Source: a virus
Virus record (IMG/VR): IMGVR_UViG_3300023178_000172
Location: 1-32,018 of that record
Length of the DNA stretch: 32,018 nt
Reading direction: 5' to 3' (one strand)
In this document: piece by piece, positions 1-14,996 of the stretch
Numbering within the stretch: the stretch's first letter is position 1
Layout: every line of letters begins with the position of its first letter
Position numbers and translations under genes: made by a program
The notes under the pieces: generated by a model
Database searches by the model: none
The model's input: only the letters and a program-made list of their open reading frames with translations
Told to the model about the DNA's origin: nothing

Positions 1-159
1 CATAATAGGCATGTACTAACAAGTCCACAGAGTTGTGCAACTATTGACTTATATAAAGGCAAAGTTCTATTTGAAGATCCACAACCTACAAAAGGTTACA
101 ATCATCCTTGGCGTATTAATAATTTAGTGGCTTTTGCAAAATGGGCGGCAACTATTTGA
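1..159 (+). CDS. C-terminal fragment of an unidentified protein
   Basis: An open frame enters from the left edge in frame 1 and ends at TGA 157-159, giving 52 codons without a start in the window. The residues include the stretch DLYKGKVLFEDPQPTKG followed by HPWRINNLVAFAKWAA, which reads like a real soluble C-terminus rather than a shadow. I do not recognise the family. It runs against the minus-strand operon and its stop overlaps the 3' end of the methyltransferase gene at 152 by 8 bp, so the two units converge with no visible terminator between them. Confidence 0.5.
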   Translation, partial: HNRHVLTSPQSCATIDLYKGKVLFEDPQPTKGYNHPWRINNLVAFAKWAATI

Positions 160-823
160 CACACAAGTAATAGGGACGATGTTCTGTTTGTCCTGGCATA
201 CGTTCTACTTGTGTGAATAGTTTTAGTGCTTGTTCATAAAACAATGCTTCACTATAGCCAGTATCCATAGTCCACTTGTGTCCTTTTTTATCTTTTTCGG
301 TAGGCACTTCAAACAGTATTGTATCTGCTTTGTCAGCAAAGTCCTTGATCAATCTATACATGTCCATGTATTTCTCTGTGCGATTATACAAGTGATGTAT
401 AACGTTAAACACTGTCATAAATTCATATACACCGTCTTGCCAACCCTCTAGGTTTGTGTGTTTAAATGTTGCTAGTGCGGCACTGTGTCTTGCTTTGATA
501 CTTTCGCATACACCGATGTATTCTAAATTATAGTCTACGCCAGTAGCAGGTATATCAAACTCCTGTGCTACTTTAAAAACATAGTAGCCTAAATTACTGC
601 CAAAGTCTGCATAACTGCGAGGGCCTACACTAAAAAACACACGTTCAAAATCTGTGCTTTTTACTTTGGTGTCTACCCATGGACGCTTTGGTCCCGGATT
701 ATTGATGGGTACAACAAGTTCATCTGTGATGTCATAGTTTTGATATCCTCGTACTTGTGTTACTGGACTATCATGTCCACCAAAAGTTATGCTTTCTATG
801 TCTGCACGTTCAAGTGTTTGCAT
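152..823 (-). CDS. class I SAM-dependent methyltransferase
   Basis: This 223-aa protein has the Rossmann methyltransferase layout. Motif I is DFGSNLG at residues 73-79, the acidic residue that would bind the SAM ribose is D97 in GVDYN, and a motif IV-like segment FMTVFNVIHHLY follows in mid-protein, then a strand ending in LFEVPTE. It is the last gene of the long minus-strand operon and overlaps the kinase-like gene upstream by 14 bp. In a run of glycosyltransferases it plausibly methylates a sugar or glycan, but the substrate is not visible. The family call is solid; specificity is unknown. Confidence 0.8.
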   Translation of the reverse strand: MQTLERADIESITFGGHDSPVTQVRGYQNYDITDELVVPINNPGPKRPWVDTKVKSTDFERVFFSVGPRSYADFGSNLGYYVFKVAQEFDIPATGVDYNLEYIGVCESIKARHSAALATFKHTNLEGWQDGVYEFMTVFNVIHHLYNRTEKYMDMYRLIKDFADKADTILFEVPTEKDKKGHKWTMDTGYSEALFYEQALKLFTQVERMPGQTEHRPYYLCVK

Positions 824-1844
824 CTATAAATTTCCCTAAACTTCTCCAGGTTGTTTCATCTAACCAGTTCCAATTCTTATATTCATTATACATGCTTTTG
901 CCCTGCTTTGTCTTTATTAATTTTGGCAAAAGTTCAGTTATTTCAGGAATAACCTGTCGTTTAACCTGTAGTATACTGCTGTATAAATCTGCGGTAGTTT
1001 CTGGTTCACTCCAAAACTCATAGTTCAATAAAAATTGACACATAACAAAATCACTATCACCGATTATTAAACTATCTTTGCCATTAACAAGTCTTTGGTG
1101 TGTATCCGTGCCAAGTTCTAGTACAGGTAATGCTTTAAAAGTTCTATACACACTATCAAAATTAGGACACTGTAGCATACCAGCACCGCCATAGTCTACC
1201 CAACGAGTTTCATTATTTTTATCTTTCATAAAGTTTCTACCGTTACTGTATCCCATGTCCCAGAATACAAATCCAGTATTATGTATACACCAACTATTCA
1301 TTAGACAAACATCACGCAAACTTTTATGAATAATTTTACGATCAGGCTTTATGGGTTTAAAAGGTTCTTTGCTTCTATAATGGTTATAGTCTTTTTTAAT
1401 TACTTGATCCACTAATGCTCTGGGTCTCTTTTCACCTTTTTCTTGTAGTTTTCTTAGCATAGCATTGAAAATCTGTGCATGATTATCAAAGTTTTTGGAA
1501 TAGGTGCTTTTAATTTTTATTATATGCTTTGTTTCATTATCATCAAGATATTTGTGTCCCCAAAACGTATCACCATCCTTGCCCTTGCCCAGATGCTGTA
1601 CAAATTTCCAACCATATGCTGCAACACATTCTCCGTCTGTGTTATATGCAACTTTAGCAGGCATTCGTGTTTCAACAATTTGTTGGCACAGTGCAGGTTT
1701 ATCTAAATTTTGTTCCAAGTATGTAATACAATCATTGAATCCTGCCTTTGCAAGACTAGTATATCCAGGTACGTCATGCACACTTTGAAAGAATTCACTT
1801 TCTGCGACACCATCAACTACCATTTTACCTGTTTTAAATGCCAC
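810..1844 (-). CDS. protein-kinase-fold protein, probable sugar or glycan kinase
   Basis: The 344-aa product shows the landmarks of the kinase fold. There is a glycine-rich loop LGKGKDGDTFWG near residues 85-96, a lysine in IIKIK near 110-112, a catalytic-loop-like D196 with N201 five residues later (spacing as in HRDxxxxN), and a metal-binding DYG at 217-219 in place of DFG. Translation starts at GTG with a strong AGGAGA site 7-8 nt upstream; no better ATG exists. The gene overlaps its upstream glycosyltransferase by 11 bp. Fold-level resemblance is my own motif reading. By context a lipopolysaccharide- or capsule-sugar kinase is likelier than a protein kinase. Confidence 0.6.
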   Translation of the reverse strand: MAFKTGKMVVDGVAESEFFQSVHDVPGYTSLAKAGFNDCITYLEQNLDKPALCQQIVETRMPAKVAYNTDGECVAAYGWKFVQHLGKGKDGDTFWGHKYLDDNETKHIIKIKSTYSKNFDNHAQIFNAMLRKLQEKGEKRPRALVDQVIKKDYNHYRSKEPFKPIKPDRKIIHKSLRDVCLMNSWCIHNTGFVFWDMGYSNGRNFMKDKNNETRWVDYGGAGMLQCPNFDSVYRTFKALPVLELGTDTHQRLVNGKDSLIIGDSDFVMCQFLLNYEFWSEPETTADLYSSILQVKRQVIPEITELLPKLIKTKQGKSMYNEYKNWNWLDETTWRSLGKFIDANT

Positions 1845-2766
1845 TATAATTCTCCTGTAACATACCCCATGCTTTACCTGATTCTATTTCGCTAAATTTC
1901 CACTGGTTAAATGCTAACCAGTTTAATAATGCTTGCCTGTTCGGTGGTTCTGTATCAAACACTGCAGGCATAGGATTATCCTTAAAATCTTCTAGACTAT
2001 AACTTACCCGTGAACAACAACTGTGTTCACTTGTAATTACAGGTATACCTTTTAGTGTTGCTTCCAGTGCAACCATACTGTTGTAAGCAATAACACAATG
2101 TGCATCTGCTAGTGCTTGTTCTAGTGTGCCGGGTTGCGGATATTCTCTTAGTTCAATTAAGTTACCTTTACCGTCAACAACAGGTTCTTTGGGTTTGCGT
2201 CTAATTACAATACGACTGTGTTCATTTTCTGGCAAATAACTGCGCAACCTGTTTGCTACCTGTTCTCCCCAGTCTTGTTCCAGTCCCATAAACCAACTAA
2301 CAGCATGTGTGGGAGGACAAATTACAATAGCATTGCCTCGTTCTGCATTAGTGCGCCAGGGTTCTTTGTTATATCCTGCGTTTTTGTGAAAACCTTTCCA
2401 GCGATCTGCACCTACATCTCTTAGTGTTGTGCAACTGTGTCCATTTTTTACTATGCGCATCCAACCTTTGCCACCATAGCCTGGTTTAAAGTAAGCATGA
2501 TCCATGTAGTAATAATCTAGTCCCATACGTTTTGCTTCTTTAAGCATGAGTCCTGTACCACGAAGTATACCCAGTGTAGCAACTGCATCAACACCCGGTG
2601 TCAAATCACTGGGCATTCCGTTGTCTATAAATTGTTGTATAGGTCTGTGTTTTATTTCCCACTGCCCATTGTTTTCATTGTTGTAACGTATTGCTCCGCG
2701 AGCAAAACCAATAGTAAAATTTGTTGTTACTCTTCGACCTGTATCATATACAAATAGTTTAGGCAT
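1834..2766 (-). CDS. capsule-type glycosyltransferase (GT-B-like), paralogue 1
   Basis: This 310-aa protein resembles capsule polysaccharide synthesis glycosyltransferases. Its C-terminal half has a strand IVICPP, a basic motif IRRKP, and the segment HCVIAYNSMVALEATLKGIP, the usual GT-B nucleotide-sugar binding pattern (N/S-S, small residues, E-A, G-x-P-V). It ends with NQWKFSEIESGKAW. The same blocks occur in the next gene upstream (2759-3571) and in the plus-strand gene at 10612-11466, so the three are paralogues. It overlaps its upstream neighbour by 8 bp. Donor and acceptor sugars cannot be read from sequence. Confidence 0.65.
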   Translation of the reverse strand: MPKLFVYDTGRRVTTNFTIGFARGAIRYNNENNGQWEIKHRPIQQFIDNGMPSDLTPGVDAVATLGILRGTGLMLKEAKRMGLDYYYMDHAYFKPGYGGKGWMRIVKNGHSCTTLRDVGADRWKGFHKNAGYNKEPWRTNAERGNAIVICPPTHAVSWFMGLEQDWGEQVANRLRSYLPENEHSRIVIRRKPKEPVVDGKGNLIELREYPQPGTLEQALADAHCVIAYNSMVALEATLKGIPVITSEHSCCSRVSYSLEDFKDNPMPAVFDTEPPNRQALLNWLAFNQWKFSEIESGKAWGMLQENYSGI

Positions 2767-3571
2767 TTAATATCTCGTATGCTAATCCAGATTCTATTTC
2801 GTCATGTGTAAATTGACTGTATGCCAAGTTGTATAGCCATTGACTAATATCTGTTTTGAAAGGCGTTTCTATGTCCTCTAACTTAGTACTACTTATGTCT
2901 GCTGCAAAACTATCCGGATGACAAATGGTTGGAATGCCTAACAGTTGTGCTTCCATAGCACACAAACTTATACTTGTTACTACACAGTGAGTGTCCTGGG
3001 CCTGTTCTGCAAATGGTACAAGTGCGGCTGCAGGTCCACTAGTGCCTTTGCCTCTGGGCTTATAGCGTACTTCAATGGGCCTGTCTGTGTATTTGCGCAC
3101 TCCATGTGTAATTGCCTTTACCCACATGTCCACACTCATACCTGTGATCCAACGTGTCATAGTTTCACTGCTAGGACAAATTAGTATTTTGGATCCGCTG
3201 GTATATGGTTTTGGCTGTACACCCCAGTGTTCAAATCTATCCTTAGGATAATCCTTAGTCTGTTTATAATGCACACTATTTTTACTAACCCGCCAGTAAA
3301 AATCCTGATTGGGATTAACTGCTTGTTTGAGTCCATTCCATCTCCCATAGTATGGCATATCCCAGAAGTACCAGTCTATACCTGCACGTTTTAGTGTGTT
3401 TATTGCGTGTTCGTTATTTTCAATAAATCCCCAGAAGTGACTGGGTTTTAAATCAATTGTGTCTGACCTATGCTGTACACGATCTGAACTGGGCCAACCT
3501 TTAAGTAAACTACGCATTACCCAGTTACATTTGCTTTCAGCATTTTGCGAATTGTAATATAAATTATACAT
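2759..3571 (-). CDS. capsule-type glycosyltransferase (GT-B-like), paralogue 2
   Basis: The 270-aa product is a paralogue of the gene immediately downstream. Matching blocks are KILICPSSETMTRWITGM, VRYKPRGKG, HCVVTSISLCAMEAQLLGIP and a C-terminal SQFTHDEIESGLAYEIL. The N-terminus is about 40 residues shorter than paralogue 1. Its stop overlaps the next gene by 8 bp, as does its start with the kinase-like gene upstream, so the genes are translationally coupled. The S-x-S-L in place of N-S in the nucleotide-sugar motif is a small divergence that may mean a different donor. Confidence 0.62.
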   Translation of the reverse strand: MYNLYYNSQNAESKCNWVMRSLLKGWPSSDRVQHRSDTIDLKPSHFWGFIENNEHAINTLKRAGIDWYFWDMPYYGRWNGLKQAVNPNQDFYWRVSKNSVHYKQTKDYPKDRFEHWGVQPKPYTSGSKILICPSSETMTRWITGMSVDMWVKAITHGVRKYTDRPIEVRYKPRGKGTSGPAAALVPFAEQAQDTHCVVTSISLCAMEAQLLGIPTICHPDSFAADISSTKLEDIETPFKTDISQWLYNLAYSQFTHDEIESGLAYEILNA

Positions 3572-4151
3572 TGTGGGTTAATTCTTGTATTCCATGAATA
3601 TTTGGTAAAATCATATCATGTTTGTGTGCAAGTGCTTTTTCCCATTTTCGTGGAATAAAGAAATCATTTACTGCAAGTGTTTGACTTTGTGTTATTGGTT
3701 GCAGACTCATCACATCTATTATTTTAAAGTCTGTGTAGTACTTGTCAACCATAATGTTTGTACCTGTTCTGTCTGCAAACATCCAGCCTGTTGATCGCAT
3801 AAAATCTATGTGTGCTTGTGCTACGCGGTTATAGTATTGTTTACAGTTCGTGTTATTTTTAAAAAACTGGTTGTATTCTCTCACACGAAGGTCTGGGTAA
3901 AAGTCGCAACTACTTCTTATTATAACGGGTTGATAATCTTTGAGATATTCTGTGACAATCCATTTGCCCTGTTCAAATATTTTTATAACGTCATTGTCTT
4001 GTTGACTGTATTCTAAAACACTGTCGGGTAATGTAATATTTTCTACATTATGAATAGCAAAATATCTTTCGGATTCATCCTCTAGAATCTGATACTTTCT
4101 TTCACCTGGCTTGTTCCAATAGTACAGTTCATGTTTTACTTCGTATTTCAT
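3564..4151 (-). CDS. short kinase-fold protein (truncated N-lobe)
   Basis: At 195 aa this is short for a kinase-fold protein. The C-terminal half carries a recognisable catalytic loop, D127-R-T-G-T-N132 (D and N five apart), followed by KIIDVMSL, where D146 would be the DFG aspartate. The N-terminal half has no clear glycine loop. A strand pair ending VIKIFEQGKWIVTEYL might correspond to the end of the N-lobe and hinge. It belongs to the same group of kinase-like proteins as the genes at 810-1844 and 7691-8926. Activity is uncertain because the ATP-binding lysine is not obvious. Confidence 0.5.
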   Translation of the reverse strand: MKYEVKHELYYWNKPGERKYQILEDESERYFAIHNVENITLPDSVLEYSQQDNDVIKIFEQGKWIVTEYLKDYQPVIIRSSCDFYPDLRVREYNQFFKNNTNCKQYYNRVAQAHIDFMRSTGWMFADRTGTNIMVDKYYTDFKIIDVMSLQPITQSQTLAVNDFFIPRKWEKALAHKHDMILPNIHGIQELTHNV

Positions 4152-4326
4152 CTATACTGCCAGCAATTTGATCATACAGTTTGTTGTAACTTTCATGATC
4201 CAAATCCAATCTAATGTTTTTTAGATGTATGTGCACCATGCCGTTACTGTTATCCTCAATGGTTAGACTGTTGTAATCTGGATCCTGTTCAACATCATTT
4301 AATATTTTTTTAGTAATGTGTCCCAT
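4129..4326 (-). CDS. small conserved-looking protein, IEDN/HIH type (65 aa)
   Basis: I do not recognise a named family. I place the start at ATG 4326, which overlaps the upstream TGA (TGATG) and has GGGAG 7 nt upstream; a GTG one codon earlier is less well spaced. The protein shares a short pattern with its neighbour: IEDN, then V/IHIH, then an aromatic-hydrophobic helix (ESYNKLYDQI). It overlaps the kinase-like gene downstream by 23 bp. Small proteins of this type sitting next to glycosyltransferases could be accessory subunits, but that is speculation. Confidence 0.6.
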   Translation of the reverse strand: MGHITKKILNDVEQDPDYNSLTIEDNSNGMVHIHLKNIRLDLDHESYNKLYDQIAGSIDEIRSKT

Positions 4327-4541
4327 CACAGTCTCCCATTTTTAAGTATAGCATCTGCAAACTCTACATATTCTTCATATGTAAAATGCAGTCTTACTAA
4401 CCATTTTTTAGGCTTGTGTTGTCCAAAGTGTATGTGTATAGGAAACTCATCTCCTATGTTGTCCTCTATTTGAAAATGACTGTTGCCAGGTGCAGGAAAA
4501 TTACAAGTGTCATAACCAATACGATTTACTATCAATCCCAT
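4326..4541 (-). CDS. small protein, IEDN/HIH type (71 aa), related to its neighbour
   Basis: No named family is recognised. Visible features are IEDNIGDEFPIHIHFG, then a basic segment (KPKKWLVRLHF) and YEEYVEFADAIL, the last resembling the end of the downstream 65-aa protein. The shared order suggests an old tandem duplication. The start ATG overlaps the nucleotidyltransferase gene upstream by 10 bp, so it is embedded in the operon. Small size and lack of Cys or membrane segments point to a soluble accessory protein. Confidence 0.6.
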   Translation of the reverse strand: MGLIVNRIGYDTCNFPAPGNSHFQIEDNIGDEFPIHIHFGQHKPKKWLVRLHFTYEEYVEFADAILKNGRL

Positions 4542-5152
4542 TTTATTTCCTCATACTGTTGTTGTTCTAGTTTAGCGTATACACTCGCAGCATTTGGTAA
4601 TACCTCTGCTATTGTTTGTACTGCTAGTTCACGTGATACAGTATTTAACAACACTTGCATACGTTGCTTGTGTTTATCTTTCCATGCACCTTTGTGATCC
4701 AGCGCACCTCTGCACACAGTGAGTGCTATTTCATCTTCCATACTAACCAGCCAATAGAAGTTTAGTTTTCTGCGTCTTGCAATTACATTGTCAAAATAAC
4801 GTTTGCCCACAGTCCAAAAACTATCATCCAGTGGAGTACGAAAGTATAAACTGTTGTACAAGTCTACCCTAAATGCTTGATGCTTGTTTGGTATGCTGGG
4901 ATCTTTGGGTGCAGTTGTAAAGTGTGGATGATACTGCATGTCACACCATTCAGCATATCCATAGTTTGTGCATTTGCCTGCATGCAGGTGTTTGCTTGCT
5001 AAATCTTGTAGTTGTGCATACTGTTCAGGAGGCACAAACATATCAACGTCTGTGTCAGGCAGATCAGGTAACAGTGCAAATCCTCTGAAGATTACATAAT
5101 CCAAATGCTCACAAGCGTCAATGAATGTTTTAAACTGTTGTTGATGTGTCAT
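4532..5152 (-). CDS. nucleotidyltransferase-fold protein
   Basis: This 206-aa protein begins like small nucleotidyltransferases of the polymerase-beta superfamily. RG at 23-24 precedes LPDTDVDMFV, which supplies the metal-binding pair D35-x-D37, and a third aspartate is D96 in RVDLY. The family typically moves a nucleotide or phospho-group to a small molecule or sugar, and LicD-like members modify surface glycans. Its 3' end overlaps the 71-aa gene by 10 bp and its 5' end overlaps the next gene by 23 bp. The fold is moderately certain; the substrate is unknown. Confidence 0.6.
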   Translation of the reverse strand: MTHQQQFKTFIDACEHLDYVIFRGFALLPDLPDTDVDMFVPPEQYAQLQDLASKHLHAGKCTNYGYAEWCDMQYHPHFTTAPKDPSIPNKHQAFRVDLYNSLYFRTPLDDSFWTVGKRYFDNVIARRRKLNFYWLVSMEDEIALTVCRGALDHKGAWKDKHKQRMQVLLNTVSRELAVQTIAEVLPNAASVYAKLEQQQYEEIKWD

Positions 5153-5756
5153 AGTCTCTTTCTAGTATGCATACGTCATCTCTGTTAGTAAACACTTCTT
5201 CCGTGTGTTTATGCAGACACACCCACCATGCTACATGCCCACTGCTGGGTAGCAAACATTTATAAGGATCACGCATACGATTGCGTCTGTGCATTATAAC
5301 ATGATCAGCCGCAAATCTTTCTGTTACACCTACTCGAGGTCCTTGTCCACTACCATATCCATAAACTAAATCTGCTTGATAACTACGCTCTATATCCTTG
5401 CTCCAGAAATGAGGTTTAAGAATTACATCAGGACGCACACGAACAATCATGTCATATTCCTCAGGCACTTGTTGCATACAATGCCAGTGATTGTACACTT
5501 GATATATGCGACTGTGAAAACGCTTACCACTATCTAGTTTGCGTGTAAACCATATGCGACTAGGATTACCTGGAGGTAAACTTCCTATCCATTCATAAAA
5601 AGCATCCACAAATGTTTCAGCATCGGGTAGTTGAGGCAATGGTGTTTGATCCCAGGTATGTGTAAACGAATCATAGGGCAGATAACGTTTTATGCTATTC
5701 AAGCATAGTTCTTGATTACCGCGAAACTCTCCGCTTATACACACTGCTACTTTCAT
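5130..5756 (-). CDS. GT-A-like glycosyltransferase-related protein
   Basis: The 208-aa protein starts with a short hydrophobic strand and the motif CISGEFRG, and in mid-protein has YDMIVRVRPDVIL (R106, R108, D110), a signature I associate with small glycosyltransferase-like proteins of large-genome viruses and marine phages. A basic loop FAADHVIMHRR and GHVAWW follow. The start ATG overlaps the upstream stop (TAATG). The neighbouring enzymes support a glycan role, but no canonical DxD site pair is certain, so I keep the call general. Confidence 0.5.
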   Translation of the reverse strand: MKVAVCISGEFRGNQELCLNSIKRYLPYDSFTHTWDQTPLPQLPDAETFVDAFYEWIGSLPPGNPSRIWFTRKLDSGKRFHSRIYQVYNHWHCMQQVPEEYDMIVRVRPDVILKPHFWSKDIERSYQADLVYGYGSGQGPRVGVTERFAADHVIMHRRNRMRDPYKCLLPSSGHVAWWVCLHKHTEEVFTNRDDVCILERDYDTSTTV

Positions 5757-6571
5757 TAGTATGTAGCACTTGTATGATCACGCTGTCTGGTATCGACATT
5801 GTCTGCACTGTATTCACCTTTTAAATCATCTACAATGTCATTTACATAACGTCCTTGAAAAGGAATTTGAAAAGGTGCATCTTTGGTTTTAGTGTATGCT
5901 GTAACAATACTTACATTGTGTGCTTTGCCATCTCTATTATGTAACTGATCAAATGCACGTTCTAGATCACTTAGTGGCGCACGTGGTTTCTTTTGTTCAT
6001 AGTAGGTCCAACTTTCCAAGTCTGTTGGACAGTCAACATACTTGCCTGTGTTTTGTGCTAACCACATAAACTGCCAAGTGTATCCATTCGCCGCCGCAAT
6101 GTCACGGAACAGTTGTGGATGGAAACTGTAGAAGCAGTGATTGAACCATGGAGCAAATGGCAGTACGTTTATCATTGTACCGCCTACACGACATAGGTTA
6201 TGCATATTTTCAAACACTGTGCGTTGATCGAATATGTGTTCACCTGTACCGTTGTTTGTTACATAGTCAAACTGAGTTGTATAGTTGTACTTGTCTTTTA
6301 GGATGAAATTAAGATCCATAGCAATACTGCGTAGTTCAGTATTGATGTCAATAGCAAGATATTCACTAAATCCGAGATCTTCAAAGTATTCCCATACAAA
6401 TTCAGTAGGTCTTCTGAGTACTCTACCACTTCTTTTTTCGCATTCATTTAACCATCCTTCACTGTATCTAAAACGTTGATTGCCCCATTCAACCACTGTT
6501 GCGCCTTGAGGAAAACATCCTCGTTTTGTTAGTTCAGCAGTTGCTAGTTGCATTATATTATTGAAAGCCAT
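5756..6571 (-). CDS. divergent SAM methyltransferase-like protein
   Basis: This 271-aa protein has a degenerate motif I (VVEWGNQRF, residues 27-34), an acidic strand YLAIDIN (71-77) and the later elements FDYVTNNGTGEHIFDQ, LCRVGGTMINVLPF and NHCFYSFHP. The GG-x-x-I and NHxFYxFxP pattern is typical of class I methyltransferase-like proteins in surface-sugar clusters. The usual GxGxG is missing, so SAM binding is less certain than for the other methyltransferases here. It overlaps the radical SAM gene upstream by 14 bp and the glycosyltransferase-like gene downstream by 1 bp. Confidence 0.55.
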   Translation of the reverse strand: MAFNNIMQLATAELTKRGCFPQGATVVEWGNQRFRYSEGWLNECEKRSGRVLRRPTEFVWEYFEDLGFSEYLAIDINTELRSIAMDLNFILKDKYNYTTQFDYVTNNGTGEHIFDQRTVFENMHNLCRVGGTMINVLPFAPWFNHCFYSFHPQLFRDIAAANGYTWQFMWLAQNTGKYVDCPTDLESWTYYEQKKPRAPLSDLERAFDQLHNRDGKAHNVSIVTAYTKTKDAPFQIPFQGRYVNDIVDDLKGEYSADNVDTRQRDHTSATY

Positions 6572-7691
6572 TAATTAATTCCTCTACTTCTGGAAATGTT
6601 TTTGCAAAACTAGTATTGCGATATAGGTCATGCTTGTTTCGCATTGTTAAAAATTTTTCATAGTGAACACTGCTATCATTAGTCAGTAGATAATCGCTCC
6701 ACTTTACTACTTCACTGTGTTTGCTAGTACTTAAATGCTGTGCAATACCCGAGCGCACTGGTTCCGTATAGACACAGGGACGCATATGACTAGGATTATG
6801 AGCTCTCCCGCACCATGGAGTAGGTAATCCTATACTATCACACCAAGTAAAAAATTCATCCATATAATAAATGTTGTATGCACTTACAGTATGACTTACA
6901 CTTAATCTAATGTTGTGTATATTTTCTTGCTCTAAATATCGATCAAGATTTTTAAGTAAAACATTATTTTTTGCCGGATACCTAATATATTCATATCTAT
7001 TACCCACACCATCTATGCTAAGTTGTATATCTATTTCTTTAAAGTTTTCCCACAAACTCCACCATTTTGTATTGGGATATACTTGTGTGTTTGTTGTATA
7101 GTGGAGTGTAATATTTTTACTTTGTCCACTGTCAACATATCTCTGCAATAGTTCAAGTTGCTTATCTACTTCACTTAGGAAAGGTTCACCACCGGGTATA
7201 TCAAAATGTATTGCGTTCGGTAGTGCATTGTAAATGTTTTCACTTGTTATGTTGTATATTACCTCAACAGGAGGTTTATCTATCCCATATAGGTCTCGGT
7301 ATTCTTTTCTCCAGCGACTACTTGCTCCAGGATTACAGGTTATGCATTTAAGATTACATGTATTTCCAAAAGCAATGCTTGCTGTAATAAATCCTTGATC
7401 CTCAGTATAACTATCGTATGCTTCTTGCCAACGTTCATAATCAAGTTGCCGTTTACTTTTAATATTACTTGCTTCTTCTGTTTTACATCTAATACATCCT
7501 GCCGGCCATTGATTGGCTAACATTTGCTGTTTAATAGTTTTTAAATTATCACTGTCTATGTATTCCTGGATAGTACTTTGTGTTATGTTTAGCATTTCAC
7601 TATTAGGCACTTCATACTTACAGCAAGGCGCAATATTTCCACGCGGTGCTATATCAATATTAGTCCAGGGTACAAGACAGAGTGGTTTCAT
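6558..7691 (-). CDS. radical SAM protein (twitch/SPASM-like auxiliary cysteines)
   Basis: The 377-aa product has the radical SAM cluster motif CNLKCITC (C112, C116, C119), which would bind a [4Fe-4S] cluster and cleave SAM to a radical. The GGEP motif that contacts SAM lies at 167-170. Before the core are paired cysteines, APCC (23-24) and CIRC (66, 69), preceded by LCLVPWTN, an N-terminal auxiliary segment seen in twitch-domain radical SAM proteins. It sits between methyltransferase genes and overlaps the kinase-methyltransferase fusion by 1 bp (TAATG). Substrate is unknown; sugar or peptide modification are both possible. Confidence 0.8.
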   Translation of the reverse strand: MKPLCLVPWTNIDIAPRGNIAPCCKYEVPNSEMLNITQSTIQEYIDSDNLKTIKQQMLANQWPAGCIRCKTEEASNIKSKRQLDYERWQEAYDSYTEDQGFITASIAFGNTCNLKCITCNPGASSRWRKEYRDLYGIDKPPVEVIYNITSENIYNALPNAIHFDIPGGEPFLSEVDKQLELLQRYVDSGQSKNITLHYTTNTQVYPNTKWWSLWENFKEIDIQLSIDGVGNRYEYIRYPAKNNVLLKNLDRYLEQENIHNIRLSVSHTVSAYNIYYMDEFFTWCDSIGLPTPWCGRAHNPSHMRPCVYTEPVRSGIAQHLSTSKHSEVVKWSDYLLTNDSSVHYEKFLTMRNKHDLYRNTSFAKTFPEVEELINGFQ

Positions 7692-8926
7692 TAGTCAATC
7701 TTTTGAAAATGATAGTATTCACGTCTGCCGCTGGGTCTTGCTTGCCCGTGATCAATTTGCACAAATTTAGTTTTAAATGCTCTTAGCATTGCTTCAGTGT
7801 GTGCTTGATTGTTTGGACGATCTTGCAGTTTCTGTGTTTCATGCACAACAATACCACCTGGTGCAAGCAAACTGTGATATGCATTAACAATTTCTTGTTC
7901 TGACAGTCCACCAAAGTCACGCAACTGTATGCTTACTGCCAAACTTAACACAATGTCATAACATTCTAGTTGTTTAAACTTTAAGTAATCATTGAATGTG
8001 CCTGTATACCATTTGACATTCCCCGGCTTTTTGTCATCACGCAATTTAACAAATGGTTCAATACCTGTTGCTTTTGCTACATGTGGTGCCATAAGTGTTG
8101 TAATAAATCCATCATTACAACCAATGTCAAGCAACTGTGCTTTGCCGTCCCACTGTTGCGCAAGTTCAACAAGTTTCATGCGTTGAACTCTATCTTGTGC
8201 ATCATCAATACCGTAACGCTTTTGATACTTGTTCCATTCTTTTACTACTTTTTCTGGTGGTTGTGTAAACATTGTCATATTATCCCATATTTCTCTTGGG
8301 TTACCTTTGCGTAACTCTTTGAATTTAGACTTGTCAGAAAGTTTGGCCATTAGCTCACTTTCCCAACTCTGTCTAGGATCATCTAGACAAATGTGCAATG
8401 CTTGTCTAAAATCATCCTTGTTGTAAAAACTGTATAGGTATCCTAACCTATCACTTAACCTATCTTGTGCCAAACTTTTTACAGGACAGGACATTTCAAA
8501 ATCTATTAAACTTATTTCGCCATCCTGTATACAAAAGTTACTTAGCGGAAACTTTGCAAAGTCTTTTGATTTTGAATTTGGATCCATGCCTGGATAAAAA
8601 TACTGTATGTCGGCACGTTCCAGTTCATCTGCAATACGATCAATTTGATCATGGTACTTGGTTAAGTTATGTTCATGCCATGAGTGAAATAAACTTTCAC
8701 CGACCTCTGTCATTGCCAGACTGTGATCACTTTCATCTGCGCCTATAATGTTTGGAAAGTGTAGTTTTCCTTTGAGTCTTTCCAAACAGGTTGTTTCTCG
8801 TAGCCAACAATCATATATACTTCCTCGAGCAGGTTTAACACTTTTTTTATTTCTTGTGCTGTAACTTTTAACAACATGCTCGCCGGTCATAAAACACCAA
8901 CTGGCTTTACCCATAGTGTATTGCAT
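7691..8926 (-). CDS. fusion: kinase-fold domain + SAM methyltransferase
   Basis: The 411-aa protein combines two enzymes. Residues 1 to about 170 look like a compact kinase fold: K20 in VVKSY, E44 in the helix WLRETTCLERL, a hinge near LAMTEVGESLF, N130 in LSNFCI, and DFE at 142-144 in the DFG position. Residues about 250-411 form a class I methyltransferase with motif I LDIGCNDG at 266-273, acidic E290 in GIEP, and a post-motif segment LLAPGGIVVHETQ. Start and stop overlap both neighbours by 1 bp. Coupling phosphorylation and methylation of one substrate is an attractive inference. Confidence 0.65.
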   Translation of the reverse strand: MQYTMGKASWCFMTGEHVVKSYSTRNKKSVKPARGSIYDCWLRETTCLERLKGKLHFPNIIGADESDHSLAMTEVGESLFHSWHEHNLTKYHDQIDRIADELERADIQYFYPGMDPNSKSKDFAKFPLSNFCIQDGEISLIDFEMSCPVKSLAQDRLSDRLGYLYSFYNKDDFRQALHICLDDPRQSWESELMAKLSDKSKFKELRKGNPREIWDNMTMFTQPPEKVVKEWNKYQKRYGIDDAQDRVQRMKLVELAQQWDGKAQLLDIGCNDGFITTLMAPHVAKATGIEPFVKLRDDKKPGNVKWYTGTFNDYLKFKQLECYDIVLSLAVSIQLRDFGGLSEQEIVNAYHSLLAPGGIVVHETQKLQDRPNNQAHTEAMLRAFKTKFVQIDHGQARPSGRREYYHFQKID

Positions 8927-9696
8927 TAGTTTTTAATTTCTTTTACTTTCCACATCTTGCCATTGCCGTTAAACTCGCCAATGATATTGATACTGCGACG
9001 TCGCATTGTAGGTTCGATACGAGGAGTAACACCATGTACACTGTCCTTTACATTTAAGAACATACAAAAGTTGTTTGCTTCGTAGGGCACTTCAAAGTGT
9101 GGTACATGCAAACTGTCATCCACTTGTCTGCCCAAACTTTTGTTTACTTCGGTAATCTCGCCTGTTGCACGATGCACTGTAAAGTTGCCGCCCTGTGCAG
9201 TATCACCCGGCTGACGCATGTAAAGCAAACCAGCATAAATCTCTACAGGGTTGTCCACATGCGGTGTGCGACTTGTGCCTGTTTGATCCACAGGCTCATG
9301 TACAACAAACTGACAGTCTGCGACATACTGTCCACTGTTGTCTACATCACGTGGTGTTACACTGCCCTGTAGCAAGTTGTGTAAAAAGTCATCACCATAA
9401 GTTTTACTAATGCTTGGCGCAAATAGTTCAACACAGGCTTTGAAATATTCTGCACTGGTGTGGTACGCAAAAAAGTCTTGCCAAATTGCAGGCGGTGCTT
9501 CCTGTTGACATTCTTTCATTTTGTAACGATAGCAGATACCTCCGTCATGTGCTGTGGTGCTGGTAACCAGTTCCATTGGAAACGTTTCGCACAATTCTTT
9601 GTAACGGTTTTCAGGCAATGCGCCTTCTACACAAACATAAGGATATGGATCCGTATGCACTTCTTTAACATTTTGTATACAACTTAAATCACTCAT
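8926..9696 (-). CDS. 2-oxoglutarate/Fe(II)-dependent oxygenase
   Basis: This 256-aa protein has the double-stranded beta-helix facial triad: H146 and D148 in TPHVDNP, and a distal H221 in DSVHGVTPR, with R226 (or the RRRS just after) to bind 2-oxoglutarate. The spacing fits prolyl-hydroxylase-like phage oxygenases, which are common in marine T4-type phages. It would hydroxylate an unknown substrate with O2 and 2-oxoglutarate. The gene overlaps its upstream glycosyltransferase by 4 bp (ATGA type) and has an AGGGAA ribosome site inside it. Confidence 0.8.
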   Translation of the reverse strand: MSDLSCIQNVKEVHTDPYPYVCVEGALPENRYKELCETFPMELVTSTTAHDGGICYRYKMKECQQEAPPAIWQDFFAYHTSAEYFKACVELFAPSISKTYGDDFLHNLLQGSVTPRDVDNSGQYVADCQFVVHEPVDQTGTSRTPHVDNPVEIYAGLLYMRQPGDTAQGGNFTVHRATGEITEVNKSLGRQVDDSLHVPHFEVPYEANNFCMFLNVKDSVHGVTPRIEPTMRRRSINIIGEFNGNGKMWKVKEIKN

Positions 9697-10583
9697 TTTA
9701 TTCCCTTACTTTTTACCTGTTGTGTAGCATCATACTCATGTGGGTTTTTCATTTTCTCTGCACGGATTTCTGCTTTTGTAACATGGCGTACATCTTGCCA
9801 CCATTCTACATCCTTGTGTGCAAACCCACCAGTAATATCACCTGCTAAACTTTTTCCTACTTCCTTACGGAAACCTTTAAGGTGGTCCATGTACTTACCT
9901 AACACACTATTAATGAAGATATGTCCACTTTGATCAGGGCCGCCGAGGTCATTAAACTCAACACCCACTGCTTTAAAATCTTCTACTAGTTCACCGAAAA
10001 TAAAACTATCATGACTTTCAATGTGATTAAAAATATCATCACTTTCATATATCCAACGCCATTGTTCTATAAATTCTTTAAATTTAGGATGGTTACGATT
10101 AAACATCATCCATCCACATTCAGGCCAAGTTTTACGTCCCAAGTATGTTGCGAGTTGATTTTCGTTTGGAGCAATGCTGTGCAAAAACTCTAAGGTCATA
10201 GGTGTATGTGTTCTAACATCACCATCACACCACATAAACACATCAGTGCCACAGTGTTCTGCAAAATGCCACAGTGCAAATACTTTGTTTGCAAAACGAC
10301 TTGCATCCCATAAAAAACTTTTCTTTGATTTATCTGCATTCCAACCGTGCGCATGTGGATTGTCTTTGTGCCGTTCTTGCCAGGCTTTTAAATCTGGCAA
10401 GGTTGTTCGTTGATCGTATAGTGTAATTGAGTGATTGCCCTCTACACTTGGATTGTGATCCTCTGCATAAATTGTAAGAGGAACTTCTTTGGGCCAGTTT
10501 GTGTTATACCCTTCAATAAACTGCTTGCCATATTTTTTGTATCCCGTAGGGTGCCAGGAGGTAAATACTGATAATGTACGCAT
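9693..10583 (-). CDS. GT-A glycosyltransferase with DxD motif
   Basis: The 296-aa product contains DVFMWCDGDVRTH, with the metal and nucleotide-sugar binding DGD at 120-122, and later WPECGWMMFNRNHPKF and an acidic FGELVEDF region. N-terminal SVFTSWHPTGYKKYG is a plausible sugar-nucleotide binding start. It is the first gene of the minus-strand sugar operon. It has no Shine-Dalgarno; instead AATAAATA ends 5 nt before the ATG, which predicts a leaderless late transcript. The divergent glycosyltransferase starts only 28 bp away on the other strand. Confidence 0.7.
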   Translation of the reverse strand: MRTLSVFTSWHPTGYKKYGKQFIEGYNTNWPKEVPLTIYAEDHNPSVEGNHSITLYDQRTTLPDLKAWQERHKDNPHAHGWNADKSKKSFLWDASRFANKVFALWHFAEHCGTDVFMWCDGDVRTHTPMTLEFLHSIAPNENQLATYLGRKTWPECGWMMFNRNHPKFKEFIEQWRWIYESDDIFNHIESHDSFIFGELVEDFKAVGVEFNDLGGPDQSGHIFINSVLGKYMDHLKGFRKEVGKSLAGDITGGFAHKDVEWWQDVRHVTKAEIRAEKMKNPHEYDATQQVKSKGIK

Positions 10584-10611: not shown

Positions 10612-11466
10612 ATGAAAATAACTCACTTTCCAAACAATCTTCCTGGCAATGCAAGTGAAGTATATCCACAACTTATAGATGCTATACAATCTACAGACAC
10701 GCTTGCAGAAGCAAGTATGGATGCTGATGCCGCACTTATATGGAGTGTGCTTTGGTATGGTAAAATGAGTGCAAACAAAAGTGTATGGGATCATTATCGC
10801 GCCCAGAACAAGCCAGTCATTGTCATTGAAGTGGGCGGGCTTATACGCAATGAAACTTGGAAGTTGGGTATAAACGGGATTAATAGAGATGCAGACTTTG
10901 CACTAGAAGAATACATGCCCGACGATCGCAGAAAAAAGTTTAGTATTGTGATGCAACCGTGGAAGCATGACGGCGAGTATGTATTAATATGTGGACAACA
11001 CGGTCATAGTGAACAATGGCGTGATATGCCAGACATGGATACATACTATCGCAATACAATAACTGAAATACGCCAACATACAGATAAACCTATAGTTGTG
11101 CGTAGTCATCCTAGATTCAGAGAAGGCTTGCACTGGGCATGCGATATGCAATGGTACAAAGACAACGATGTAACTTGGAATATTCCACAGCATATACAAA
11201 AGACCTATGACAGTTTTGACCTAGAGCATATGCTTAAACACACATACTTCACTGTTAGTCATAGTAGTAATGCAGGTATACACAGCATTATTAACGGTGT
11301 TCCTGCTGTAGTAAGTAAGCATAGTTTAGCATATGAAGTAGGAAGTAAAATGGGCAAGTGGTTAAGTAAACCAGAACGACATGTTTGGTTTAACCGTATG
11401 TGTTACACAGAATGGCATGCAGATGAGATTGGTTTGCAGTGGAATAGAATTAGAGCAAAACTATAA
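10612..11466 (+). CDS. capsule-type glycosyltransferase (GT-B-like), paralogue 3
   Basis: This 284-aa protein matches the pair at 1834-3571: YVLICGQHGHSEQW, VVRSHPRFREG, FTVSHSSNAGIHSIINGVP and a C-terminus YTEWHADEIGLQW. It lies on the plus strand, divergent from the operon that contains its paralogues, so it was probably moved or duplicated separately. The E-A of the nucleotide-sugar motif is replaced by H-S, suggesting changed specificity. The ATG at 10612 lacks a good Shine-Dalgarno (TTTCCAT precedes it), and I see no convincing late box at the right distance. Confidence 0.6.
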   Translation: MKITHFPNNLPGNASEVYPQLIDAIQSTDTLAEASMDADAALIWSVLWYGKMSANKSVWDHYRAQNKPVIVIEVGGLIRNETWKLGINGINRDADFALEEYMPDDRRKKFSIVMQPWKHDGEYVLICGQHGHSEQWRDMPDMDTYYRNTITEIRQHTDKPIVVRSHPRFREGLHWACDMQWYKDNDVTWNIPQHIQKTYDSFDLEHMLKHTYFTVSHSSNAGIHSIINGVPAVVSKHSLAYEVGSKMGKWLSKPERHVWFNRMCYTEWHADEIGLQWNRIRAKL

Positions 11467-11533
11467 TTCAGAAATTATTACCTAGTAACTATTAGGCATA
11501 AGTATTATCTGTATGTTTGTAAGTTATTCGTCA

Positions 11534-11579
11534 TTGACCTTTTTGCACACATAAGAAAATATAAATTTATATTAAGGAA
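11534..11579 (+). promoter_or_regulatory. candidate porin promoter and ribosome site
   Basis: The sequence TATAAATT at 11560-11567 resembles the late box TATAAATA, and AAGGAA at 11574-11579 is a good ribosome site 8 nt before the porin ATG. A TTGACC at 11534-11539 could be a -35, but it is 20 bp from TATAAA, too long for a strong sigma70 promoter. Late control is the better guess. Confidence 0.4.
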
Positions 11580-11587
11580 ATTTCAAA

Positions 11588-12424
11588 ATGAAAAGACTAT
11601 TATCAACTGCTGCAATCGTTGCAGCACTTTCAACTCCTGCTGTGGCTGATGTAACAATCGGCGGCGACTTTGAATGGAGTTATCAGGATTCAAACGGAAC
11701 ATCAACAACTGCAGTGGATGCGGATGTAAACATTAAGCCAAGTATGACACTAGAAAATGGTTACACTGTAAGTGCAGATTTTAACATTGATCAGGATGCT
11801 AATGATGATGGCGGTAACAGCCTAACTATTGCAAAAGACATGTTTAAGTTAGACATGGGTGATACAGACAGTGCTACTGACGCAATCGACGATGTAACTG
11901 ATTTCGGTTATGTGCTATCAAACGGTTCACCAAGTACAGATCATGCTGCATTGCTAACAGTTTCACCAATCGAAGGTTTGAAATTGCTTGCATCGTTTGC
12001 TGGTGACAGTAACTATGGCACAACTGCAACTGCAGGTCATGCATATGGTGCCCAGTTTACACTTGGTGGTGTAACACTAGGCGGTGCTCAATTGAAAAAT
12101 GATGACAGCACTGAAGAACGTGTAATGAACGTAAGTGCAGGTTTTGGCGATTTTACAGTTGGTTATGAAGTACACACTGCAACAACTGCTGCAGATGTTG
12201 ACACAGACACAACCACTATCGGCGGTGGTTACACATTGGGCGATACAACATTCCTCGTTGAAGCAATGGAAGCAGAATCACAAAGTGTAGTAAGCAGTGA
12301 CGAAATGACCTATGGCATTCATCACACACTTGCACCAGGTCTTGTAGCATTTGTTGAAACAACAGATGACGAAAAGACTGCTAGTGAAGAAACAACTGCA
12401 ATTGGTCTTACAATGAAATTCTAA
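11588..12424 (+). CDS. outer-membrane porin (Gram-negative type)
   Basis: The 278-aa product begins with a clean Sec signal peptide: MKR, a hydrophobic run to about residue 16, and PAVA before D21, giving likely cleavage after A20. The mature part consists of alternating amphipathic strands rich in Gly, Thr and Asp (VTIGGDFEWSY, GLKLLASFAGDS, VTLGGAQLK, NVSAGFGDFTVGYEVH, TTIGGGYTLGDTTFLVEAM). It ends IGLTMKF, with the terminal phenylalanine used for BAM-dependent barrel insertion. It has its own promoter region, a good ribosome site and its own terminator, so it is an independent expression unit (moron). It is complete, with no frameshift. A non-porin beta-barrel is the main alternative. Confidence 0.85.
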   Translation: MKRLLSTAAIVAALSTPAVADVTIGGDFEWSYQDSNGTSTTAVDADVNIKPSMTLENGYTVSADFNIDQDANDDGGNSLTIAKDMFKLDMGDTDSATDAIDDVTDFGYVLSNGSPSTDHAALLTVSPIEGLKLLASFAGDSNYGTTATAGHAYGAQFTLGGVTLGGAQLKNDDSTEERVMNVSAGFGDFTVGYEVHTATTAADVDTDTTTIGGGYTLGDTTFLVEAMEAESQSVVSSDEMTYGIHHTLAPGLVAFVETTDDEKTASEETTAIGLTMKF

Positions 12425-12440
12425 TTTTTATTAGGATAAT

Positions 12441-12469
12441 AAAAAAGCAGCGGAAACGCTGCTTTTTTT
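12441..12469. terminator. bidirectional intrinsic terminator
   Basis: The stem GCAGCG / CGCTGC (12447-12452 and 12457-12462) closes a GAAA tetraloop, with six A before and seven T after it. It can end the porin transcript on the plus strand and the gp32-uvsX-uvsY-methyltransferase transcript on the minus strand. Confidence 0.9.
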
Positions 12470-12474
12470 ATGAC

Positions 12475-13206
12475 TTATGTATGCCATCTATAGTCTTGGA
12501 CGGTTCCATCTAACCAAGTAGTAACTAATCCTTGATCAGTTAGTGTTCCATTTTTTAAAACAAGTTCTCGCATATTATCATTAAGTAAATCATCGTCTAC
12601 CATACTATACCAACTAGTATTATAAGACAAAGGTTCGCGCTCTTTGTAAACTACAACTTGAATCCAATCATCATACTTTATTTTTTGTAGATAAAAGTCT
12701 TTTACATCAAAACCGTTAATTGCAAGAAGATATACGAGTTGTGTTACTGTAAAAGTATTATAATGCATAGGAGGTGTATAATGTTGAAAACGATGCTGTA
12801 ATACATTTACTGTACTAGGCACACCTAAATATAGCATGCCTCCCATGCTCATTGCACGGTTTACACGCCCTAAAAACTCAACAGGGCTATAAATGTACTG
12901 CATAACATCATGACACCATACAACATCGAATTTAACACTCCACATTGTATCGTCTGTGTTTAAATCAAAATTTCTATATTTTATGTTGTGTCTTTGTGGT
13001 TCTATATGTTCGCAGTTCAAATCAAAGCCAACGCAGTTAAAGTCTAGATACCGACCTTCGGTTCCATCTTCTAGCAGTTCACGCATATTTGCCCAGTATT
13101 CTAGATCACTACCGTTACCACAACCAAAGTCTGCCATGTGTTTGATACTACGTTTAAAATCATCAAACTGGTTTAGTATCTCTAATGTTGGCTTACTGTC
13201 TCGCAC
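12475..13206 (-). CDS. class I SAM-dependent methyltransferase
   Basis: This 243-aa protein has a textbook motif I, DFGCGNG at 26-32, an acidic strand end GFDLN, motif IV FDVVWCHDVMQYI and a post-motif region AMSMGGMLYLGVPS. It starts with GTG overlapping the uvsY stop (TAGTG), with AGGA upstream. It is the last gene of the recombination operon, next to the bidirectional terminator. Its similarity to UbiE/glycan-type methyltransferases, and its closeness to the glycan genes beyond the porin, suggest small-molecule or sugar methylation rather than DNA methylation: there is no DPPY-type motif. Confidence 0.8.
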   Translation of the reverse strand: MRDSKPTLEILNQFDDFKRSIKHMADFGCGNGSDLEYWANMRELLEDGTEGRYLDFNCVGFDLNCEHIEPQRHNIKYRNFDLNTDDTMWSVKFDVVWCHDVMQYIYSPVEFLGRVNRAMSMGGMLYLGVPSTVNVLQHRFQHYTPPMHYNTFTVTQLVYLLAINGFDVKDFYLQKIKYDDWIQVVVYKEREPLSYNTSWYSMVDDDLLNDNMRELVLKNGTLTDQGLVTTWLDGTVQDYRWHT

Positions 13207-13667
13207 TATTCGATCCTAATATCTTCCATGCCAGCAGTGCGTAGTCGAACTATGTGTCCCATCTGCCACTGTTTAGCATCCAAGCCTTTCATAATACCAA
13301 GCCACTTGTTGCGTAGCAGTGCAACTTCGTTGATGATAGTTTCAAAGTCAATAACTTCATCTTCTCCGTCCACATACTTTTCTGCATCACGACTTGTTAG
13401 CGCACGAGCATATCCTTCCAAATACTTTTGAAAATGCTTGCGTCTTATCTTGCGCAGTTGTATGTTTAAGAAGTTTAGTACTGCTTCAATTTCTTGTAAT
13501 TGATTGAAGCGATGCTCTGTGATACCAGGTAAGGCACTGATGTTACGTTCAACAATGCCTTTTACACCACATTCATGTTTTGCTTCTTCAAGTTCACTTT
13601 CATAATATCCAATGAACTGTGGAATTTCTGCAAGATTGTTTACAACTCTGTTATACCATTGACTCAA
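13206..13667 (-). CDS. uvsY: UvsY recombination mediator
   Basis: The 153-aa protein matches the UvsY family of T4-type phages, with the helical core LRKIRRKHFQKYLEGYAR and VALLRNKWLGIMKGLDAKQW. UvsY loads UvsX onto gp32-coated ssDNA during recombination-dependent replication. T4 UvsY is about 137 aa, so length fits. The start is a TTG at 13667 that overlaps the upstream TGA (TTGA); there is no in-frame ATG near the N-terminus. It lies two genes downstream of uvsX in the same operon, as expected for a mediator. Confidence 0.88.
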   Translation of the reverse strand: MSQWYNRVVNNLAEIPQFIGYYESELEEAKHECGVKGIVERNISALPGITEHRFNQLQEIEAVLNFLNIQLRKIRRKHFQKYLEGYARALTSRDAEKYVDGEDEVIDFETIINEVALLRNKWLGIMKGLDAKQWQMGHIVRLRTAGMEDIRIE

Positions 13668-13888
13668 TAGTCTTCATCTTCGTATTCGAAGTCCTCTTCA
13701 GGTTCGCCAAGTATATCTTGCACACTTGCTTTGATATACTTGTCTAAGCCTGCCAGTCTATAAAGTTCTTCCTCGTCAAGCAATTCTTGTAGATCATCTA
13801 CTAGATGATCAGTTGCTTGTTGCATATCTTTTTGCGATATGTACTGTTTCAAAATAGTATATACATTTTTAACTATTTCTTCATGCAT
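13664..13888 (-). CDS. small acidic protein between uvsX and uvsY
   Basis: I place the start at ATG 13888 (MHEEIVKNVYTIL), which overlaps the end of uvsX by 8 bp; a longer frame would overlap it by 47 bp. The 74-aa protein is helical, with DDLQELLDEEELYRLAGL and a very acidic C-terminus (EPEEDFEYEDEDY). No named family is recognised. Its place between uvsX and uvsY suggests a role in or coupled expression with recombination. The acidic tail could mimic DNA or bind gp32-like partners, which is speculation. Confidence 0.7.
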   Translation of the reverse strand: MHEEIVKNVYTILKQYISQKDMQQATDHLVDDLQELLDEEELYRLAGLDKYIKASVQDILGEPEEDFEYEDEDY

Positions 13889-14996
13889 CTGTGTTTGCTT
13901 CCTCAAGTACTTCGCCTGTTTCTGCATTTACAACATCACCGTTTGGTGCTGTAATAGTAGCAGGCGCATCCTCTATACTTAGCAAATCTAGGTCAGAAAG
14001 ATCTTGCATAATTACTTCAAGTTTGTCTCCAGTCCAGCCTTTGCGGAATTCTAGCATTTCTTCTCCAGCACTCGTAGTATACTTAAGACGATTGCCTTGC
14101 TTTGTAAGTAGACCTTTCTTTTCAAACAAATCTAATAGTCCACTGTAAGGATCCATGCCAGTCTCATATGGAATCTTAACTTGTACACCTTCAAAAGGTT
14201 TAGCGTAACGTGTTTTCATAACCTTACAAGCCGCACGAATACCCATTACATCGCTGATCTTGTTGCCATCGGCATCTTCTTTAAGTTTTAGTTTACGCAT
14301 AGCAACCACAATACTACTAGCATAGATAAAGCCTTGACCACCACTAATCTTATCATCTGGATCAAACATATCCTGCGACGCATAAGTGTGGTTAGTACAC
14401 ACCATGCCTACATTGTAACTACCAATCATGTTAACTGTGTTACGAACAAGTGCAGTCAATGCCTTGGGCTTACGACCCATATCACCTTTCATGTCACCCT
14501 TGTCAAACTGATCAACGTCGGTGGGCGTTAGCAACATACCCAAACTGTCAACTACAAATAGCACTTTAGGACGTTCTTCTTCTGCCATTGCTTTGTAGTC
14601 TTTCATAAATGTTGAGATTGTTTTAGCAACATCGTCAATCATACTCATACTAAGTTTAAGCAGTTTGCTTTCGTCTGTGTCTACACCCAGTGCTTGTAGC
14701 CATGCTTCGTCTAGTGCGTTCTCACTGTCAATTAGTACTACAAAGATACCTTGCTCTTGTGCATTTTTAACAATGTTGCCACTTGCAAAATAACTTTTAC
14801 CTGCACCAGATTCACCAGCAAACACTGTAACTTTGCCCATAGGCACACCTTTGCGGAAATCCCCACTAATAAGATAGTTAAGTGCATAACTGCCTGTGCT
14901 GATCCAATCAGTAGGATCATTAAAGCCAATGCTTAATCCATCAATGCTTTTTGTAATATCTTTTCTAAATTTGCTTACGTCAAACGGCTTTGCCAT
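13881..14996 (-). CDS. uvsX: UvsX, RecA-like recombinase
   Basis: The 371-aa protein has the RecA fold with Walker A GESGAGKS at 61-68, Walker B KVLFVVDSLGML, and a loop ISGGQGFIYASSIVV typical of the UvsX branch. T4 UvsX is 391 aa. It binds ssDNA and catalyses strand exchange in recombination-dependent replication and repair. Upstream of the ATG is AAGGAAAGG. A perfect 22-bp palindrome separates it from gp32. Downstream genes overlap it, so the small protein and uvsY are co-transcribed. Confidence 0.95.
   Translation of the reverse strand: MAKPFDVSKFRKDITKSIDGLSIGFNDPTDWISTGSYALNYLISGDFRKGVPMGKVTVFAGESGAGKSYFASGNIVKNAQEQGIFVVLIDSENALDEAWLQALGVDTDESKLLKLSMSMIDDVAKTISTFMKDYKAMAEEERPKVLFVVDSLGMLLTPTDVDQFDKGDMKGDMGRKPKALTALVRNTVNMIGSYNVGMVCTNHTYASQDMFDPDDKISGGQGFIYASSIVVAMRKLKLKEDADGNKISDVMGIRAACKVMKTRYAKPFEGVQVKIPYETGMDPYSGLLDLFEKKGLLTKQGNRLKYTTSAGEEMLEFRKGWTGDKLEVIMQDLSDLDLLSIEDAPATITAPNGDVVNAETGEVLEEANTDA

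Follow-up and report, generated by a model that had tools for sequence, protein, structure and literature searches.

Among the closest described systems are the Lc porin of phage PA-2 and NmpC of prophage DLP12, reportedly complete phage-encoded porins for which a change of receptor is a possible benefit. Both genes belong to temperate lambdoid phages and are of the OmpC/OmpF type (Porin_1). To our knowledge, phage porins have otherwise been noted only in a few temperate enteric phages and in scattered metagenome annotations. Here we analysed a stretch of viral DNA of 32,018 nucleotides (the window; IMG/VR record IMGVR_UViG_3300023178_000172) that contained a porin gene. Like Lc and NmpC, the window porin was complete and phage-encoded; unlike them, it had no match to Porin_1 (OmpC/OmpF-type) up to an E-value of 10 and belonged to a group of jumbo phages in which no integrase was detected among four long relatives. 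The literature that we searched, which lacked most subscription papers, described no jumbo-phage-encoded porin and no exchange of one porin for another at a slot, and the auxiliary-gene paper that named a "porin" referred to KdgM, a host protein. Phage porins were already known as a kind; the search is weak evidence that a jumbo-phage slot at which one porin takes the place of another has not been described before.

The porin gene (11588-12424, + strand) was an intact reading frame of 278 amino acids running from ATG to TAA, and the opposite strand of the same interval was interrupted by stops throughout. A reading made from the sequence alone had proposed a complete porin here, and the profile search bore this out: Pfam Porin_4 (PF13609) covered residues 7-262 with an E-value of 9.3e-19 (68.8 bits, where the curated cut-off is 27) and also matched 32 of the 32 aligned relatives. 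The window porin had no match in PHROG and, searched as a single sequence, none in the PDB. The signal peptide of the sequence-only reading (residues 1-20; 11588-11647, +), with cleavage expected after A20 (MKRLL...TPAVA, followed by DVT), agreed with the sequence pattern on inspection. A20 was invariant in the 32 relatives, as was the terminal Phe (F278), also part of that proposal. The mature proteins of the family were 258-260 residues long (about 258 in the window) and very acidic, with a net 26-36 acidic residues and 36 in the window porin. Its GC3 of 0.26 was similar to that of the neighbouring phage genes.

AlphaFold2 with 32 phage sequences predicted a closed barrel of 16 strands (pLDDT 78.2, pTM 0.70), while an earlier run on 11 sequences was poor (pLDDT 61). 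The longest inter-strand segment of the model, residues 95-117 (11870-11938, +), was located between strands 5 and 6, contained a short helix and was among the best conserved segments. It is a candidate constriction loop 3; in general porins the constriction loop lies between strands 5 and 6. The model was thus in line with the 12-16 strands and L3 loop that had been suggested as the mark of a true porin. Foldseek against the PDB placed Vibrio cholerae OmpU first (TM-score 0.80 by query length, E 4.5e-14), followed by porins of Burkholderia, Rhodopseudomonas, Rhodobacter and Neisseria and also by OmpF/OmpC; the top matches were all porins. A sequence profile reached OmpU independently (E 2e-6). 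Like OmpU and other Porin_4 porins, the phage porin had the Porin_4 domain and the terminal Phe and was predicted to have 16 strands, the fifth and sixth joined by loop 3. It differed from OmpU in sequence (19% identity), in length (258 versus about 320 residues) and in being encoded by a phage. When classes were assigned by the usual porin topology rule rather than from coordinates, mean entropy was 0.50 in the predicted outer loops (the least variable class), 0.70 in the strands and 0.95 in the periplasmic turns. The higher conservation of the loops and loop 3 relative to the strands would fit a constraint on the channel. The profile match, the closed 16-strand model and the junctions found again in independent contigs (below) together argued for a true general porin of 16 strands that belongs to a real T4-related phage, and none of the outcomes named beforehand as refuting (no porin hit, no closed barrel, a chimeric assembly) was observed. 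Proteins annotated as porin-like in BFVD, for example A0A6J5L4P1 and A0A6J5LP82 from uncultured Caudovirales phages, were also viral and had porin-like predicted folds; they differed in length, were 11-13% identical to the window porin and showed no sequence relation to it.

Upstream of the porin, a conserved block (AAGTTATTCGT ... CTTTTTGCACACAT; 11521-11552, +) recurred in most of the slot relatives and was present as a single copy in the window. Given this recurrence, it is a better candidate for a regulatory element than the T4-type late promoter proposed earlier, which falls inside a palindrome, AATATAAATTTATATT (11558-11573, +), that was neither conserved nor above chance. The promoter was rejected, since the window had eight copies of its TATAAATW motif where 7.0 would be expected by chance, and a box directly upstream of the porin was found only in the window and L008 among the 32 relatives. 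A good ribosome-binding site, AAGGAA (11574-11579, +), had similar counterparts in most relatives. Downstream, the suggested bidirectional terminator proved to be real: AAAAAAGCAGCGGAAACGCTGCTTTTTTT (29 bp; 12441-12469) read as an intrinsic terminator on both strands, was conserved and travelled with the porin. The proposal that the porin had its own expression cassette gained support from the inversion of the gene as one unit and from the accompanying terminator, and none from the late promoter. A conserved hairpin in the 5' leader was also considered and rejected, as the window was no better than shuffled sequences (z +1.0). Hairpins better than shuffles were present in the leaders of many relatives with type-B porins and in L012 and L030. 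The type-B leaders (e.g., L024:1948-2008 and L045:9943-10003) had a short hairpin before the ribosome-binding site, with stems that differed among them (ACAGC/GCTGT, GCAGC/GCTGC and ACAGT/ACTGT).

The window also encoded UvsX, UvsY, a gp32-type single-strand binding protein, the large terminase subunit, a tail tube protein and a tail sheath of 1081 amino acids. Its terminase was 52% identical to those of PA5oct-group phages and 48% to that of Sinorhizobium phage Phosso, and its sheath was approximately 46% identical to those of PA5oct, Phosso and Atu_ph07. The genomes of these three phages are about 285 to 490 kb long; the 32-kb window was therefore, as judged from sequence, a fragment of a PA5oct/Phosso/Atu_ph07-like jumbo myovirus. 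What had been described as a T4-type genome was indeed T4-related, and the jumbo phage group is its better description. A 316-kb relative (L018) was 68% identical in terminase, 58% in sheath and 61% in porin, and its porin was located about 70 kb away from its terminase gene. No tyrosine integrase was found in the four long relatives, whose records were incomplete or unclosed; with that limit, lysogenic conversion like that of PA-2 was unlikely. A run of genes on the minus strand (152-10583), methyltransferase-like, radical-SAM, weakly 2OG-oxygenase-like and unassigned, most of them without a PHROG match, resembled a modification gene cluster and was conserved beside the porin slot.

Three scans of IMG/VR for related phage contigs, a comparison that the sequence-only reading had suggested, recovered the porin family in about 48 IMG/VR contigs (53-100% identity), mostly at one genomic slot. 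The full-length members that were extracted had 278-280 amino acids and undamaged frames. For close pairs within porin types, dN/dS was 0.07-0.21, which indicates purifying selection. Two contigs from other samples (L002 and L003) encoded a porin identical to that of the window, and to either side of it nearly all of their proteins were likewise 100% identical. Since these contigs carried the same junctions independently, and the gene order was conserved in dozens of contigs, a chimera with misassembled host DNA was ruled out. No relative was found by tblastn in 50,697 phage records, among them PA5oct, Phosso and Atu_ph07, which belong to the same group by terminase and sheath but have no relative of the window porin. 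Nor was a cellular relative confirmed when GTDB contigs were scanned by pattern. With a sequence profile, the only matches were weak and partial; they came from 17 of 385 alphaproteobacterial genomes (best E 1.9e-6) and from 0 of 369 gammaproteobacterial genomes, and a re-search with whole reading frames from the alphaproteobacterial loci of the 17 genomes returned nothing. By comparison, the porin of L199, from the same phage group, matched 113 of the same 369 genomes, with full-length matches at about 25-38% identity, so the genome sample held porins detectable by the method. The evidence leaned towards a link to alphaproteobacteria, but so weakly that it pointed to no particular host and was not relied on; an origin from SAR11 was not demonstrated.

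In most of the approximately 48 contigs, the porin was located between a conserved gene without a Pfam or PHROG family (10612-11466, + in the window) and a methyltransferase gene (12475-13206, -) that was missing in some relatives, followed by the phage core block of uvsY, a small gene and uvsX (13206-14996, -). The left flank gene and two further genes of the window (1834-2766 and 2759-3571, both -) were distant paralogues of about 20-28% identity, none with a Pfam family. In 11 contigs (L005, L006, L007, which is the same as L016, L009, L010, L011, L019, L031, L037, L050 and L063), the porin unit alone was flipped while both visible flanks remained in order. At a minimum, this required five orientation changes on the porin tree and three on the poorly resolved UvsX+UvsY tree. 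In the short contig L046, UvsY-like sequence flanked the porin on both sides (L046:3-248 and L046:1346-1804), either a duplication at the slot or an assembly fault. In other genomes the slot was empty: the matched flanking genes were separated by a gap of 2 bp in L106/L117 (one contig) and L107, and of 13 bp in L111. Since some of these were close relatives, the porin gene was dispensable. Additionally, a radical-SAM/SPASM gene occupied the slot without a porin in L115 and similarly in L105 and L118, and stood beside the porin in L026 and L019. These radical-SAM/SPASM-type genes encoded about 470-500 amino acids (L115:6806-8275, L118:8213-9682, L026:6804-8219 and L019:6446-7954), with Pfam run on L115 only. 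Of the loci that were empty or had the radical-SAM gene alone, seven were examined, and none had the terminator.

Three genomes had a different Porin_4 protein of 312 amino acids (E 7e-19) at the same slot (L112:999-1934, L114:894-1829 and L198:6001-6936, the last on a 203-kb contig). BLAST found no significant similarity between it and the window porin (E 0.4), and it had no match in the same bacterial genome samples or phage records that could indicate its source. In L112 and L198 the 29-bp terminator behind it was identical to that of the window. Such replacement suggests that porin activity, and not one particular protein, is under selection. Since the slot and terminator were kept while the porins differed, the porin was the exchangeable part of the cassette. 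Homologous alleles appeared to be exchanged as well. Between the window type and the main other type, mean identity was 58% for the porin versus 90% for UvsX, 87% for UvsY and 80% for the left flank gene, and the L005 porin was 90% identical to that of the window while its UvsY was only 74% identical. On the UvsX+UvsY tree, on which few branches were well supported, the slot changed state at least nine times. A further possibility, at well below even odds, is that this clade of jumbo phages maintains one slot specifically for porins. With the terminator staying constant, porin cassettes would be exchanged, flipped or dropped there, making the outer-membrane permeability and surface identity of the infected cell a rapidly exchanged viral trait comparable to tail-fibre exchange.

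As to function, the sequence-only reading had offered superinfection exclusion and a wider uptake of nutrients as possible roles. We favoured a resetting of outer-membrane permeability during infection, with a probability of roughly one half. According to this proposal, the cassette on the jumbo myovirus genome consists of a leader, the porin gene and the bidirectional terminator, and the phage would make the porin during infection. The host Sec and BAM machinery would then export it and assemble OmpU-like trimers in the outer membrane. The porin could thereby reset the permeability of the infected cell, so that small, mostly cationic or neutral solutes would still enter when the host makes less of its own porins. 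With 36 net acidic residues, the protein is so negatively charged that its channel may well prefer cations. We placed this reading first because the predicted loops and the loop-3 segment were conserved and unrelated porins replaced each other. Purifying selection and the Porin_4 genes elsewhere in related phages also spoke for it, and the empty slot of some close relatives spoke against it.

The second explanation was receptor replacement, a role reportedly suggested for Lc in PA-2. The phage porin would replace or outnumber a host porin used as a phage receptor, and its short loops would offer competing phages no binding, resulting in superinfection exclusion. Short loops were suggested by the 258-260 residues of the family versus 289-340 in the matched solved porins. 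The porin alleles of different types (58% identity) diverged far more than the flanking genes (80-90%) and did not follow the backbone, resembling genes in a surface arms race, and the non-homologous swaps at the slot pointed the same way. Short loops and exchanged alleles gave this explanation its second rank. However, the predicted outer loops were the least variable class, dN/dS showed no positive selection overall, and the benefit that PA-2 gains as a lysogen was probably inapplicable to a group without an integrase in four long relatives. We considered it rather unlikely.

The third explanation was envelope maintenance: through the long infection by a jumbo phage, the porin would only replenish the outer membrane and keep up its integrity or stress balance, with no specific role in transport or exclusion. 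Any porin would then suffice, in agreement with replacement by unrelated porins, and the small heat-shock-type gene near the porin in another lineage would also fit. On the other hand, the loop-3 segment and the acidic residues were strongly conserved, suggesting that channel properties mattered, and some close relatives lived without a porin, leaving this explanation improbable. Finally, a host porin misassembled onto phage DNA or a recent functionless pick-up, which could have accounted for the missing PHROG family and cultured-phage matches, was very improbable in view of the shared junctions and synteny, the purifying selection, the phage-like GC3 and the clean empty alleles.

The occurrence of the same pore, a flipped gene, an unrelated pore or nothing at one position suggested that rebuilding the host outer surface during infection is a selected viral trait. 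The porin was a conserved yet exchangeable component of many jumbo-phage genomes, and the same slot and terminator with an unrelated porin amounted to a natural experiment. It becomes testable whether a lytic phage remodels the cell it infects, either in outer-membrane permeability or in receptor surface.

Porin carriage in the clade was recurrent but not universal. A Porin_4 scan of 15 further clade contigs, in which L198 had its slot porin, found no Porin_4 gene in a 210-kb contig (L130) and other, off-slot Porin_4 genes in L200 (425 amino acids; the 93-kb contig of L124) and L199 (344-357 amino acids; the 90-kb contig of L183). L202 had an outer-membrane-like protein of 184 amino acids that was below the Porin_4 cut-off. 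The L199 and L202 genes (L199:1405-2478, Porin_4; L202:1438-1992) both came after phage genes whose ends resembled each other, GQ..(V/I)..AMREGRN, and these loci are perhaps a second slot for outer-membrane proteins. The porin had another context in a second lineage, and a small heat-shock-like gene, recognised by eye, was located shortly upstream of it there (L018:7629-8102, L027:736-1149 and L030:8995-9432).
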